Assembly (NCBI GenBank): GCA_017479205.1
Contig: JAFVCN010000041.1
Span: 1-32,992, forward strand
From: Candidatus Saccharimonadota bacterium
GTDB taxonomy: Bacteria; Patescibacteriota; Saccharimonadia; Saccharimonadales; Saccharimonadaceae
DNA: 32,992 nucleotides
Reading direction: 5' to 3'
Below, piece after piece: positions 5,616 to 9,733 of this stretch. The translations under genes and the position numbers were made by a program. The notes under the pieces are model-generated. The model ran no database searches and was not told the origin of the DNA. It saw only the letters and a program-made list of their open reading frames with translations. The first letter of the stretch is position 1. Every line of letters begins with the position of its first letter.

Positions 5616-5691
5616 GGGGACGTAGCTCATCTGGTAGAGCGCAGCATTCGCATTGCTGAGGTGGTCGGTTCGAGTCCGATCGTCTCCACCA
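5616..5691 (+). tRNA. tRNA-Ala (anticodon CGC)
   Basis: A complete 76-base cloverleaf with encoded CCA. The acceptor stem is GGGGACG/CGTCTCC with one G-U pair. The D arm is GCTC/GAGC. The anticodon stem CAGCA/TGCTG encloses the loop TTCGCAT, giving anticodon CGC, which reads GCG. The T arm is GTCGG-TTCGAGT-CCGAT. The encoded CCA overlaps the left end of an 82-bp structured repeat, whose first hairpin plus T run can terminate the transcript. Confidence 0.96.
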
Positions 5692-5771
5692 CAAAATTGG
5701 AGAAATCGCCGTAGGCGATTTTTTGACGCGTTGCGTCAAAGCTGGCGAAGCCAGCCAATTTTGTGGAAAGC
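5690..5771 (+). repeat. 82-bp cloverleaf-like repeat, copy 1
   Basis: Terminal inverted repeats CCACAAAATTGG (5689-5700) and CCAATTTTGTGG (5755-5766) are a perfect 12-bp match. They enclose three perfect hairpins: AAATCGCC-GTA-GGCGATTT (5703-5721), TTGACGC-GTT-GCGTCAA (5723-5739) and GCTGGC-GAA-GCCAGC (5741-5755). The result is a four-way junction. A second copy in the same orientation lies at 9598-9680, with one substitution and a one-base length change in the second loop. The first hairpin followed by a T run also looks like the tRNA-Ala terminator. Confidence 0.93.
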
Positions 5772-5817
5772 GCGTCAGCGATACATCGCGAAGCGATGTT
5801 GGAGCTAGCGCTTACCA
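5764..5817 (+). repeat. 54-base hairpin element, copy A
   Basis: TGGAAAGCGC (5764-5773) pairs with GCGCTTACCA (5808-5817) apart from one A-A mismatch. It encloses the hairpin ACATCGC-GAA-GCGATGT (5783-5799). It overlaps the right end of the 82-bp repeat. Its length and termini match the element at 5838-5891. Confidence 0.8.
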
Positions 5818-5837
5818 TAGAAGTAATAACGATTTGA

Positions 5838-5891
5838 TGGAAAGCCCGCCGCCGAGGAAAAGTTTACTTTTCCGAAGACAAGGGCTTACCA
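5838..5891 (+). repeat. 54-base hairpin element, copy B
   Basis: TGGAAAGCCC (5838-5847) pairs with GGGCTTACCA (5882-5891), again with one A-A mismatch. It encloses GGAAAAGT-TT-ACTTTTCC (5856-5873). It has the same 54-base length and ends as copy A, but an unrelated inner hairpin and a compensating change in the outer stem (GCGC to GCCC, matched by GCGC to GGGC). Confidence 0.8.
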
Positions 5892-5976
5892 AGATGCCAA
5901 TTTTGCATAAAAAATGCGTCCAAAAATGCATTTTTGCCTCTATTAATTCGTCTGTTAATGCCTTAAACGATCAGAT
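5892..5976. other. Non-coding stretch after the hairpin elements
   Basis: AT-rich sequence between the 54-base elements and the end of the broken Nudix gene. It contains a weak TGCAT/ATGCA inverted repeat. No gene or promoter is seen in it. Confidence 0.4.
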
Positions 5977-6498
5977 CTATGATTTAGCTTCTTTCAAAAT
6001 CTCCAAGACCCGCTTTTCACGCTCCGCCATCTGTTTTTTAAACGCATCGTCACTTTTGAAAACAGAGTTTACTGCTATAGCTTCTTCGATCGGTACAAAT
6101 CTTAAAACAAAATCTAGCGCCTTTTCCCCATCATCTAACTCTTGGCTACCTATCTCGTCTTCCACTTTACAAGTGTAGTAGAAATTCTGTTGAATATGGA
6201 TAGTATCCTTACCAGATTCGTCGCCATTTTGAATCTTTAAGACTTCTCAAAATTCTTTGACTGAATTCGGAATGAGTGTCATACCAGTTTCTTCTTTGAT
6301 TTCACGAGCTAATGTTTCAAGATGTGTTTCATCGCCCTCAATTCCGCCACCAGGGAATTTATAAAAATGATACTTCTGGCTATAAATCATTGCTATATTA
6401 CCATCGTTATCAAAGATAATTCCGCGAACCGATGGTCGGTAAAACTTTTCCCCATTTGGATTATAGTCCTTTAAGTCGATAGTAAAAAGTTTTCTCAT
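5977..6498 (-). pseudogene. Nudix hydrolase interrupted by an in-frame UGA
   Basis: Nudix enzymes cleave nucleoside diphosphates linked to another moiety. The Nudix box is intact: G51-x5-E57-x7-R65-E66-I-x-E69-E70-x-G72-M, in the window GGGIEGDETHLETLAREIKE and onward. After codon 83 (SVKEF) codon 84 is TGA (6247-6249). The same frame then stays open for 89 codons and reads as the C-terminal half of the enzyme, to TAG at 5977-5979. The total of 173 codons is a normal Nudix length, and the family usually has a glycine at this place, so GGA to TGA is a likely single-base change. ATG 6498 is chosen because a -10 lies exactly six bases upstream. It may be a recent nonsense mutation, readthrough, or a sequence error. 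Confidence 0.85.
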
Positions 6499-6504
6499 AT
6501 TACT

Positions 6505-6513
6505 ATTATACCA
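6505..6513 (-). promoter_or_regulatory. Extended -10 promoter of the broken Nudix gene (leaderless)
   Basis: Minus-strand TGGTATAAT (hexamer 6505-6510), followed by six bases and then ATG 6498. The predicted transcript starts on the A of the start codon. The promoter is intact although the gene is interrupted. Confidence 0.8.
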
Positions 6514-6583
6514 TAAAAGATGTGTTGAGGCTTTCGTCCAAATGTCTTCCTTGTAGATTGTTAATGCCTGAACAATCAGCCCC

Positions 6584-6804
6584 CACCACGTTAGGGTGTC
6601 GTCTATGGATATCGCATAGCGACACAAAGTATGGGACATCCTCGTGGATAACGGGAGTTCCCCACCTTTTTTTGCTCACAGACATGTTTGTCAGACATTT
6701 TTTGTACGCCAGATTATGGTCAGATCGATCTGACCGAAAATTGCCCGGCGTTCATCATGCGCCGCTTTTCTGTGGTATGACACGACTATTCATTATCCGT
6801 GTCA
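6584..6804. repeat. Cluster of unrelated hairpins in a gene-free stretch
   Basis: Between the Nudix promoter and the end of the small basic gene lies a run of inverted repeats. CCACG/CGTGG (6586-6590/6643-6647) encloses GTGTCG..CTATG/CATAG CGACAC (6596-6625). Then come an 18-bp perfect palindrome GGTCAGATCGATCTGACC (6718-6735), CGGCG/CGCCG (6746-6764, followed by CTTTTC) and TGACACG/CGTGTCA (6778-6804). Base composition is GC-richer than the flanks. No convincing gene covers it. Confidence 0.65.
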
Positions 6805-6831
6805 CAAGCAGGATTACAATGGTACAATGTC

Positions 6832-7059
6832 TTATTTTTTATACTCTTTCATCTGTTTGCTATTTGAACGAAACACACTTTGATTCGAAAATCCGAGTCC
6901 TCTAGTATGGGCACTTCGGATTCTTTTCTTTTTCCAGTTAGGATCTGACTCGTGCTTGGCGATAAGCATTTCTCTCGTCAAACCTCTTTTTTCGAGAATT
7001 TTTCGTAATTGAATGCCCAGGGCAGCAACTGACTCGGCTTTTTTCTTTCTATGTCCCAT
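6832..7059 (-). CDS. Small basic protein of unknown function
   Basis: The 75-residue product is strongly basic, beginning MGHRKKKAESVAALGIQLRK and containing RKILEKRGLTREMLIAKHES and PNWKKKRIRS. It has no membrane segment, cysteine pair or family motif that I recognise. The gene is supported mainly by its promoter: TGATAAAAT, six bases, ATG, the same arrangement as the DUF5684 gene at 20877. The basic composition suggests nucleic-acid binding, but that is only inference. It lies inside the repeat-flanked island, divergent from the RloC-like gene. Confidence 0.5.
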   Translation of the reverse strand: MGHRKKKAESVAALGIQLRKILEKRGLTREMLIAKHESDPNWKKKRIRSAHTRGLGFSNQSVFRSNSKQMKEYKK

Positions 7060-7065
7060 AGCTTC

Positions 7066-7074
7066 ATTTTATCA
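7066..7074 (-). promoter_or_regulatory. Extended -10 promoter of the small basic gene (leaderless)
   Basis: Minus-strand TGATAAAAT (hexamer 7066-7071), exactly six bases before ATG 7059. It is divergent from the promoter at 7103-7111. Confidence 0.65.
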
Positions 7075-7102
7075 CGTTTAGTCATTTATGAACTACTCTA
7101 TA

Positions 7103-7111
7103 TGGTATAAT
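7103..7111 (+). promoter_or_regulatory. Extended -10 promoter of the RloC-like gene
   Basis: TGGTATAAT with the hexamer at 7106-7111 and a predicted start near 7118. This gives the RloC-like gene a leader of about 149 bases, the longest in the window, with a hairpin GTCGGT-N7-ACCGAC (7158-7176) and two mini-ORFs. Confidence 0.75.
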
Positions 7112-7145
7112 GAAAGCAGATAAACAGGACTGTGACAGTGAAAAA

Positions 7146-7211
7146 ATGAGAATAGAGTCGGTTAACATTACCGACCAAAATATAGAGAAAAAAATAATTA
7201 CACAATCGTAG
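7146..7211 (+). CDS. Possible 21-residue leader peptide
   Basis: An ATG at 7146 opens 21 codons (MRIESVNITDQNIEKKIITQ and a final S) ending in TAG, inside the leader of the RloC-like gene. The hairpin GTCGGT/ACCGAC lies within it. A second mini-ORF (7242-7265, MKRIGED) ends two bases before the main ATG. No clear Shine-Dalgarno site is seen for the first one, so translation is uncertain. The beginning resembles SMC/RecF-type N-termini, which could be chance. Confidence 0.25.
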   Translation: MRIESVNITDQNIEKKIITQS

Positions 7212-7266
7212 CATAGACTCAAAAGGTAAGGATAGTATTTAATGAAAAGAATTGGAGAGGACTAAA

Positions 7267-9423
7267 ATGCCATTGGTATTTAATAAGATTGAGAATTCCG
7301 ATATTTTTGCACATGATTTTAATCCTTTCACGAGGAACAACCAAATTGACTTTCCTCGGCAAGAAGAAATAGTAGTAATATATGGTCCAAACGGAACCGG
7401 AAAAACAAGCCTTATCAAAGTCCTTTCTGATGCGGCGAACACAAAACTGGAGTTTCAATACGAAGGGGTGACGCATACTACCGGAGAAGACGTCTTTCAT
7501 ATTATTAGTGACCAGAATAATCGAAATATTATTTCCGGCGAAACGAGAGACTTCTTTCTCGGGGATGACATCCAGCGGGAATTTCAATTACAAGATACTT
7601 TGAATGAAAAGCGAAACATCCTTATTACTTCCATCATATCTACACTCAAATCTAACGGAATTACAGCTGCAAAGAGCCCGCTGATTGAACTAATTGATAA
7701 CGAACAATTAGGGGCATTTTTAAAGGATTGTGCAAACAATAAGTCCAAAGGCGGACATTATTCAAATGAACAGATTGTTGATATTTTCTCATTATTAGAG
7801 CTTTCGGAGCTTGGCGAATACGATGAAGATAAGCTAAACTTCCTAATCTCGGATTTTGAAAAGAAAAAGCCAATTATCCTTCAAATTGAGCAGTTAGCCT
7901 CAGAAACTCTCACGCCAAACGTACACGTTAGAGAGATTGAAGAAAATACTGAAGCAATCTCTATCCTAAACCGCTTTCATAAGTCGCAATGTATCGTGTG
8001 TGATACAGACGGAATAGACTGGGAAAGACTATTAGTTACTAAAACGGCGAATCGTGATGCCGTGAAAGAAAATCTTGATCCACACCTCAAAGAACTGCTT
8101 GAGGAGATAATTGGCCTTACTTTCGTTTCTGACCCATTCAATCTTAAGTCTCGATTGCTTAAAACTATAGAAAACGGCGATTTAGGTATTATTGCTGAGA
8201 TATTGAATGAAATCAGAATGTACAAGGAGCTTTATCAAAAAAAACTTAAAAATGCCATTATAAATGTTTATATTCAAACGTCGATCGAGGATACCTACCA
8301 GGAATATCGACAGTTGATTGAAACCACACCGGATATCACCGATGAAGATTATCTTTACATTAAAGAAATAATTGCAAACAGCATGAGCAAGCCGCTTGCT
8401 GTAGAACGCGATGAAAATAAAAGACTTCGTATTCGCTTGTCCAAGCAAGAGTTTCTCGGAATACCAAGACAAGAATTGCCACTCAGCACTGGCGAACAAA
8501 ACTTCCTGTCTCTGACTTTTGAATTTCTCAAAGCAAAAAACTCTGCTGCCCCTGTTGTCGTTATTGATGACCCAGTCTCTAGTTTTGACTCTATATATAA
8601 GAATAAGGTTGTTTACGCAATTACAAAAATGCTGAGTCATAAGAAACGAATTGTGTTGACTCATAACACTGATCTTATTCGCCTTTTAGATGGGCAGTAT
8701 AAGCATTGCTTTAAACTATATTTATTAAACAATACTGACGGCGAGGTGAACGGCTTTATTCCTCTCAGGACTCGTGAAGAGGAGATGCTGGTAAGTCTAG
8801 AGAAATTACTTGACGCTTTTCGTACTGACGTTCCCCGGAATGTCGTTAATTCCGAACTGTTTTTAATTTCTATGATACCTTTCATGCGTGGCTATGCGAA
8901 CATTGCAAACAAACGCGATATATTTGAAGAACTTACACAGGTCATGCATGGGTATAAAACGGAAACTGTTGATATCGCACATTCATATATTGAACTGTTT
9001 GGAAATCCCGGAAACACAATTCCTACGTCTTTCGTTGTTGGAGTCGCAGACATATTATCTCGAACTGTTGATAGGGTTGATTTAGTTAATACCGAGCACT
9101 TTCCTCTGCTAAATCGGACCTTAAAGCATTCTTTTCAATATCTTTCCTTGAGATTGGCTGTAGAGAAAGCTTTAGTTGATAAATTCAATATCGACACAAC
9201 ACAATACAGCCAGTTAGGTCAAATAATATCTGCAGCTTTTCCTGATGATAATGATATTGACCAAATTCGTAATAGGATAAGACTAACGTCCAAAAAGACT
9301 CTAATTAATGAGTTTAATCATTTTGAAGGCAACTTGAGCATTTTCCAACCTGCAATAGATATTACTGATGATGCTCTTGGCAAGGAAAGAGCCGATTTAA
9401 TGTCGTTTATCGATAGCCTGTAA
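7267..9423 (+). CDS. RloC-like ABC ATPase with zinc hook and candidate anticodon-nuclease domain
   Basis: The 718-residue protein has an SMC/Rad50-type ATPase split by an insert. Walker A GPNGTGKT is at 40-47; the insert (about 100-380) carries a zinc-hook-like CIVC at 242-245. The ABC signature LSTGEQ (406-411), Walker B VVVIDDPVSSFDS (430-442) and H-loop His466 (VLTHNTD) follow. DDPVSSFD is characteristic of AAA_13 proteins such as PrrC and RloC. The C-terminal ~230 residues contain R629-x3-E633 (LRLAVEK) and NEFNH with His685. These compare with the Arg-x3-Glu...His triad of PrrC/RloC anticodon nucleases, though the Glu-His gap is larger (52 against about 32 in PrrC). RloC cleaves tRNA in response to DNA damage or phage. 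Start ATG 7267 follows GGAGAGG; a TTG at 7252 overlaps that site and is unlikely. ATPase and hook are clear; the nuclease is inferred. Confidence 0.75.
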   Translation: MPLVFNKIENSDIFAHDFNPFTRNNQIDFPRQEEIVVIYGPNGTGKTSLIKVLSDAANTKLEFQYEGVTHTTGEDVFHIISDQNNRNIISGETRDFFLGDDIQREFQLQDTLNEKRNILITSIISTLKSNGITAAKSPLIELIDNEQLGAFLKDCANNKSKGGHYSNEQIVDIFSLLELSELGEYDEDKLNFLISDFEKKKPIILQIEQLASETLTPNVHVREIEENTEAISILNRFHKSQCIVCDTDGIDWERLLVTKTANRDAVKENLDPHLKELLEEIIGLTFVSDPFNLKSRLLKTIENGDLGIIAEILNEIRMYKELYQKKLKNAIINVYIQTSIEDTYQEYRQLIETTPDITDEDYLYIKEIIANSMSKPLAVERDENKRLRIRLSKQEFLGIPRQELPLSTGEQNFLSLTFEFLKAKNSAAPVVVIDDPVSSFDSIYKNKVVYAITKMLSHKKRIVLTHNTDLIRLLDGQYKHCFKLYLLNNTDGEVNGFIPLRTREEEMLVSLEKLLDAFRTDVPRNVVNSELFLISMIPFMRGYANIANKRDIFEELTQVMHGYKTETVDIAHSYIELFGNPGNTIPTSFVVGVADILSRTVDRVDLVNTEHFPLLNRTLKHSFQYLSLRLAVEKALVDKFNIDTTQYSQLGQIISAAFPDDNDIDQIRNRIRLTSKKTLINEFNHFEGNLSIFQPAIDITDDALGKERADLMSFIDSL

Positions 9424-9490
9424 TAAGAAGAAGGAAACAGTCGCTTTTACTGTAGTGGTTATAATAATAACAAAAAAATTGATGATGATT

Positions 9491-9556
9491 TAGCACTTGC
9501 TAGATGCGCCATTTTTTCTAGAAACTGGTGCGTCTGGACGCAAGCGTGTCTTGCGT
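9491..9556. repeat. Hairpin cluster downstream of the RloC-like gene
   Basis: Three consecutive hairpins: TAGCA-CT-TGCTA (9491-9502); AGATGCGCCA/TGGTGCGTCT (9502-9535, ten pairs as RNA including two G-U); and ACGCAAG-CGTGT-CTTGCGT (9538-9556). They precede the second 82-bp repeat copy. The stretch from 9424 to 9749 contains no gene that I can support. Confidence 0.6.
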
Positions 9557-9597
9557 GGTTTTTGCTGTCGGCGATATCCACGTATGACATGGCAACA

Positions 9598-9680
9598 CAC
9601 AAAATTGAAGAAATCGCCGTAGGCGATTTTTTGACGCGTGTGCGTCAAAGCTGGCGAAGCCAGCCAATTTTGTGGAAAGC
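9598..9680 (+). repeat. 82/83-bp cloverleaf-like repeat, copy 2
   Basis: Same orientation and sequence as 5690-5771, except A for G at 9608 and one extra base in the second hairpin loop (GTGT instead of GTT). All three inner hairpins are kept, with the outer pair CACAAAATTG/CAATTTTGTG. It is followed by TGGAAAGCCCGCC (9672-9684), identical to the start of the 54-base element at 5838, but the rest of that element is not recognisable here. Confidence 0.93.
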
Positions 9681-9733
9681 CCGCCTTAGTGAAGCATAGC
9701 TCCTGAAGCGTCTTTTTATATAAGCATAAGCTG

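Follow-up and report, generated by a model that had tools for sequence, protein, structure and literature searches.

The 32,992-nucleotide stretch of DNA analysed here (the window; contig JAFVCN010000041.1 of assembly GCA_017479205.1, Candidatus Saccharimonadota bacterium, referred to below as genome G000) carries two near-identical cloverleaf palindromes of 82/83 bp in direct orientation, the left one placed on the encoded CCA of a tRNA-Ala gene. This repeat belongs to a family of small DNA elements with a strong fold which, within one genus of gut Saccharibacteria, are placed on the CCA of many different tRNA genes; no published description of the family was found in the open-access literature. 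Its members are probably non-autonomous DNA elements whose insertion point lies directly behind the CCA of a tRNA gene, and the 3.9-kb island lying between the two window copies would be cargo acquired by the single-crossover insertion of a circle.

Structure and distribution of the element family

The left (5689-5766) and right (9597-9675) copies, both on the plus strand, align without gaps in two blocks (42 and 43 nt), each 98% identical and with a spacing of 3908/3909; over 86 nt, the identity was 97%. They differed in the first base of the stem (C in the left copy, A in the right one), in one substitution and in one loop base. Fold prediction produced for both a four-way junction composed of an outer stem and three perfect hairpins, with minimum free energies of about -39 and -41 kcal/mol (z = -6.4 and -6.8), and none of 200 shuffled sequences was as stable. 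The tRNA-Ala(cgc) gene was placed at 5616-5691 on the plus strand by ARAGORN, Rfam and its fold, and its encoded CCA (5689-5691), which serves as docking site, also supplies the three bases with which the cloverleaf stem begins. The direct repeats, their four-way fold and the start of the left copy on the tRNA-Ala CCA, all put forward in the initial annotation, were thus confirmed.

The cloverleaf, recognized there as the element, is indeed part of it, but the unit proved to be larger, comprising a second hairpin module that ends in CCA and forming arrays at tRNA 3′ ends. In the left copy, the cloverleaf, or module A, was supported by repeat comparison, fold, covariance models and covariation, and presented an outer stem formed by 5689-5699 and 5756-5766 (CCA...TGG) enclosing hairpins at 5703-5721, 5723-5739 and 5741-5755, the first of them followed by a terminator-like T-run. 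Module B (5764-5817, plus strand) reads TGGAAAGC...CAGCGATACA-hairpin-TGTTGGAGC...GCTTACCA, finishes with a second CCA, and was identified by pattern match (0 expected by shuffling) and by a model, R3, at 53 bits. It is followed on the same strand by a short A-type spacer, CCAT...ATGG, at 5815-5840, read from the sequence and showing the same grammar at loci L038, L043 and L067, and by a second B-type hairpin, TGGAAAGCCCGCC...GGGCTTACCA, at 5838-5891 (pattern match and fold). The right copy, supported by repeat comparison, fold and covariance model, is placed off any tRNA and has at its 3′ side a truncated B-module start, GGAAAGCCCGCC (9674-9685, plus strand), matching 5839-5850.

Plain sequence searches recovered only the two window copies, and no third near-identical copy was found in the 737,682-base assembly; the further copies anticipated in the genome do exist as structural homologues with other sequences. 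A weak sequence match in contig C24 proved to differ in sequence while keeping the architecture, and was placed directly on the CCA of tRNA-Phe. A covariance model was seeded from the two window copies and grown through structure alignment, because two MAFFT alignments had misplaced the hairpins. In 67 kb, the two-copy model recovered the C24 Phe copy, a copy following tRNA-Met in G169 and, in G027, one following a tRNA-like end close to tRNA-Glu, with E-values from 6e-15 to 4e-10. In the resulting five-sequence alignment, 97.5% of the cells were paired and 15 pairs had changed on both sides, while slid controls reached at most 46% and 2 pairs; this alignment leans on the model, and its members were not picked for compensatory changes. 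The refined model, R2, matched 17 of the 174 genomes of the genus with E-values down to 1e-21, the matches in G038, G053 and G371 being simpler hairpins by eye, and no match outside the genus was obtained in a sample of 392 genomes from 156 genera of the order under stricter filters, with which weak relatives may be lost. A B-module model matched 15 genomes of the genus and added true cloverleaves in G285 and G371. Moreover, a B-core pattern searched over about 85,000 species genomes was present in 9 contigs, 8 of them from Saccharibacteria and several labelled goat gut. A stricter B pattern (2.9 million viral contigs) and an exact 28-mer of the cloverleaf found no match in viral contigs, where a loose TGGAAAGC...GCTTACCA pattern gave, among the matches listed, unrelated sequences. 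The proposal of a lineage-specific MITE- or REP-like palindromic family was therefore borne out by covariance-model matches restricted to one genus among those sampled, in which the same architecture recurs with different sequences.

In the 30-member set assembled in this way, four members had no called tRNA: two belong to contigs that start inside a tRNA, and the others are the right window copy and the G027 member at the tRNA-like end. All the 26 members with a called neighbour tRNA started at its 3′ end, 23 of them exactly at the first C of CCA, and the remaining three (two at tRNA-Phe, one at tRNA-Ile) differed only through the calling of the tRNA end or of the match start. Thirteen isoacceptors were represented, in about 17 species of the genus (Ala-cgc, Phe, Met, Glu-ttc, Glu-ctc, Val-tac, Val-gac, Pro-tgg, Pro-ggg, Ile-gat, Ile-tat, Lys-ctt and Leu-caa). 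A structure-only scan, performed without any sequence model over 407,626 bases, detected 17 cloverleaves, of which 15 were on a tRNA CCA, one was the G027 tRNA-like end and one was the right window copy; as the scan covered 20 element loci and the window, chosen for having elements, it informs only on exact position and on the absence of background.

The complete unit has the order [tRNA CCA]-cloverleaf-TGG-B hairpin-TACCA and a size of about 105-150 bp. The 3′ strand of the outer stem ends in TGG (GGG in a few members), and the first of the three perfect hairpins inside this stem is the terminator. Module B opens with (T)GG-A-A... and closes with ...YTACCA; in between, a variable stem leads to the conserved core AGCGATA...TTAGAGC, which encloses a likewise variable hairpin. 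At its foot, TGG pairs with the final CCA, and an A.A mismatch is kept in 26/27 units. Shorter B hairpins lacking the core were observed at L202, L203 and L070. Nearly all strong B-module matches were located just downstream of a tRNA, and arrays were recurrent, with tandem units whose B modules are identical in both G067 and G174, and arrays of mixed composition in G000 at tRNA-Ala, tRNA-Val and tRNA-Pro. As a separate observation, many tRNA genes of the genus, such as the tRNA-Met genes at L237-L259, have a T-run right after the CCA, where the tRNA itself may be the terminator stem.

Probable insertion at tRNA ends and the 3.9-kb island

In the explanation considered probable, the arriving unit would bring its own terminator, so that the tRNA would still be properly ended after insertion. 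The tRNA-sense strand would fold, either as single-stranded DNA or in a cruciform, and the exchange at the CCA core of the folded strand would be the work of a trans-acting recombinase. The central TGG could pair either with the upstream CCA, giving the A fold, or with the downstream CCA, giving the B fold, and the competition between these folds over three core nodes (CCA/TGG/CCA) could determine the state in which the strand is cut or joined. The tRNA-Ala locus of G000 would then represent an array of docked units, in which a circle carrying the same cloverleaf inserted by a single crossover at the cloverleaf, leaving the 3.9-kb ATPase segment between two copies.

The content of this island agrees with the initial annotation as to a broken Nudix gene, a small open reading frame (ORF) and an ATPase, the last described there as RloC-like and matched here as AAA_13. 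CorA follows the island. The Nudix remnant (5977-6498, minus strand) has an in-frame stop near 6244. The ORF (6832-7059, minus strand) encodes a basic protein of 75 aa from a family without assignment, and the AAA_13/SMC-like ATPase (7252-9423, plus strand; 717-723 aa) presents a zinc-hook-like CxxC motif, QCIVCDTD, a Pfam AAA_13 match at 2.4e-17 and a weak PADLOC match. The ATPase possibly has a role in defence; no relatives were found in IMG/VR or PLSDB, and PDB gave only weak P-loop matches. Imperfect 20-bp direct repeats, GTTAATGCCTTAAACGATCAG (5954-5974) and GTTAATGCCTGAACAATCAG (6560-6579), were also observed flanking the Nudix remnant, resembling a small cassette.

The accessory nature of the segment, previously suggested, was corroborated by the presence of the ATPase in only one of the 246 genomes sampled from the order and by the nearest relative with the tRNA-Ala-CorA junction, G027 (CorA 87% identical), in which only a simple terminator lies between tRNA-Ala(cgc) and corA, with neither cloverleaf nor island. 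In the window, a full B module comes after the left copy, and the truncated B start and corA come after the right one, which is what the single crossover of a circle with the same cloverleaf would leave. The island would probably represent a cargo insertion through recombination at the cloverleaf; recombination between the repeats, by which it would have been made or could leave as initially proposed, is hypothetical. It is nonetheless conceivable, though rather unlikely, that ordinary homologous recombination, or a tandem duplication, between cloverleaf copies produced the island, separately from the movement of the small element, as suggested by the 97% identity of the copies over about 85 nt and by G000 having the sole sampled cloverleaf away from a tRNA-like end; however, 85 nt is short for such recombination, and the cargo is foreign to the sample of the order. 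This origin of the island is compatible with the insertion of the small elements at tRNA ends.

Several observations bear on whether the small elements themselves move. Within genomes, A modules at different tRNAs were more alike (identity of 0.69) than those at the same tRNA across genomes (0.64; permutation p 0.003), and the same held for B modules (0.79 vs 0.72; permutation p 0.0002); for example, the A modules at the Leu and Val tRNAs of G169 were 93% identical. This likeness points to dispersal, which, judging from identity alone, could also have come about by gene conversion. Furthermore, a second terminator just beyond the element was present at 4/27 loci vs 6/508 control windows, as expected if the unit had been wedged between a tRNA and its old terminator. 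In G027, related hairpin units on the reverse strand of L067 (927-1020 and 1209-1310) end in a 19-nt copy of the 3′ end of the preceding tRNA-Glu and tRNA-Arg, respectively; the L067 units form a second subfamily with tRNA-matched ends. At tRNA-Ile tat (L201/L278), G390 has an extra complete cloverleaf and B module before a B unit nearly identical to that of G088, a difference that may possibly reflect a recent insertion step.

These data also bear on the proposal, which we regard as improbable, that the elements are immobile, elaborate tRNA terminators or trailers, in which template-switch (quasipalindrome) correction and gene conversion between tRNA loci preserve the perfect palindromes or renew them in situ. 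Hairpin 1 being a terminator accords with it, template switching would give perfect compensatory stems copying the tRNA CCA, and simple CCA...TGG palindromes occur at other tRNAs too. Palindrome correction would, however, erase the invariant A.A mismatch and the conserved asymmetric core of module B, both of which persist, and the tandem identical units, the old terminators beyond the element at several loci and the presence of the element at tRNA-Ala in G000 and its absence in G027 speak against immobility as well.

Insertion after the CCA has in turn to be weighed against a number of contrary points. The right copy lacks a preceding CCA and was the sole cloverleaf among the 17 placed away from any tRNA or tRNA-like 3′ end. 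The polarity of the difference between G000 and G027 hangs on one species pair, and a synteny search at tRNA-Met gave no second clean empty site, revealing bare tRNA ends in other species mostly in different contexts. No circle, strain-level presence/absence or viral carrier was seen, the viral contigs having been pattern-searched. As for the enzyme, a Y1 transposase was present in 8 of the 174 genomes of the genus, none being G000, and only G088 among the eight has the element, as a 26-position fragment; a regular-expression search of 20 sampled element regions, reaching about 10 kb around them, detected no tyrosine-recombinase box. Finally, the unit ends were located by searching for TACCA, and the ACCA common to the tRNA and the unit end in most of the 27 units is too short to serve as proof of a crossover site.

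Relation to known systems and level of action of the fold

The element works like other small palindromic non-autonomous elements, yet it could be assigned to none of the known groups. Repetitive extragenic palindromic (REP) sequences and bacterial interspersed mosaic elements (BIMEs), and GTAG palindromes associated with REP-associated tyrosine transposases (RAYTs), are, like the present elements, dispersed palindromes of small size whose foot is conserved and which contain a mismatch (PMC3733652). The complement of the B foot reads TGGTAG, with GTAG at the hairpin foot, in 13/27 units. However, REPs are spread across intergenic space, whereas the present elements are always on a tRNA CCA and form a four-way cloverleaf, and their genomes mostly lack the Y1 transposase, as stated above for G000 and the genus. 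With regard to miniature inverted-repeat transposable elements, module B has ends of the TGGAA/TTACCA type, and no autonomous transposon partner sharing terminal inverted repeats was found. Genomic islands that target tRNA genes by means of a tyrosine integrase similarly leave the gene intact by inserting at its 3′ end, and the 19-nt tRNA-end duplications at two G027 units recall their attachment-site duplications; the units differ in their size of about 0.1-0.15 kb, in having no integrase nearby in the regular-expression search and in a usual common block of ACCA only. Rickettsia palindromic elements and the hairpin and double-hairpin elements of mitochondria, with an example in a sponge, are mobile hairpins tolerated in or near RNA genes. 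The present elements would share this feature with them and differ in sequence; to our knowledge, a fixed CCA docking is not described for either.

The attC sites of integrons are folded-strand sites whose sequence and terminal hairpin vary and which contain a mismatch or a bulge (PMC2727003). Module B resembles them in its fixed fold with variable sequence, its mismatch or bulge, its variable terminal hairpin and its strand asymmetry, and the arrays of units and the gene island between two copies would fit an integron-like cassette system in which the tRNA end is the docking site and the island a cassette. The attC boxes have the consensus RYYYAAC / GTTRRRY, and this pair occurred in 0/27 units on either strand. 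Since, moreover, the target is a tRNA end, no integrase motif was found near the 20 sampled regions and only one gene-bearing case was seen, an attC-like identity appears quite improbable.

The cloverleaf fold most likely acts as DNA. A T-run follows hairpin 1 in a terminator-like arrangement in 28 of 30 members, so that transcription from the tRNA should stop inside the cloverleaf and the rest should rarely be transcribed. The compensatory changes involve few G-U pairs (22/1011, 2%), and GNA loops are favoured, numbering 30 on the sense strand vs 5 of the complementary type. GNA triloops are especially stable in DNA. Together with the terminator, these features argue for a fold at the DNA level, and, by DNA energies, the sense strand was the more stable one for B in 26/27 units and for A in 20/30. 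Among Rfam covariance models above the gathering score, only tRNA matched, with no family for the element. The initial suggestion of a structured RNA, taken here as a processing signal or a tRNA-linked small RNA made with the tRNA transcript, is highly improbable, since the strict tRNA linkage and orientation, the strong fold and the covariation that recommend it are countered by the terminator, the scarcity of G-U pairs, the lack of an Rfam match and the differing presence at the same tRNA in G000 and G027.

More tentatively, and with less confidence than in insertion after the CCA, the family may represent a new kind of mobile element, a CCA-docked DNA cloverleaf that would recombine as a folded strand via a CCA/TGG/CCA switch, carry its own terminator, form arrays and transport genes, as in the ATPase island, using a host recombinase not yet known for such a role. 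Little mobile-element machinery is known in Patescibacteria. The use of the universal tRNA CCA as a docking site, with termination repaired on arrival, would show that small genomes have a further, new means of accommodating insertions. The folded arrays would constitute a directly testable recombination substrate, and the cloverleaf with its B module could serve as a search model for gene islands in host-associated Saccharibacteria.

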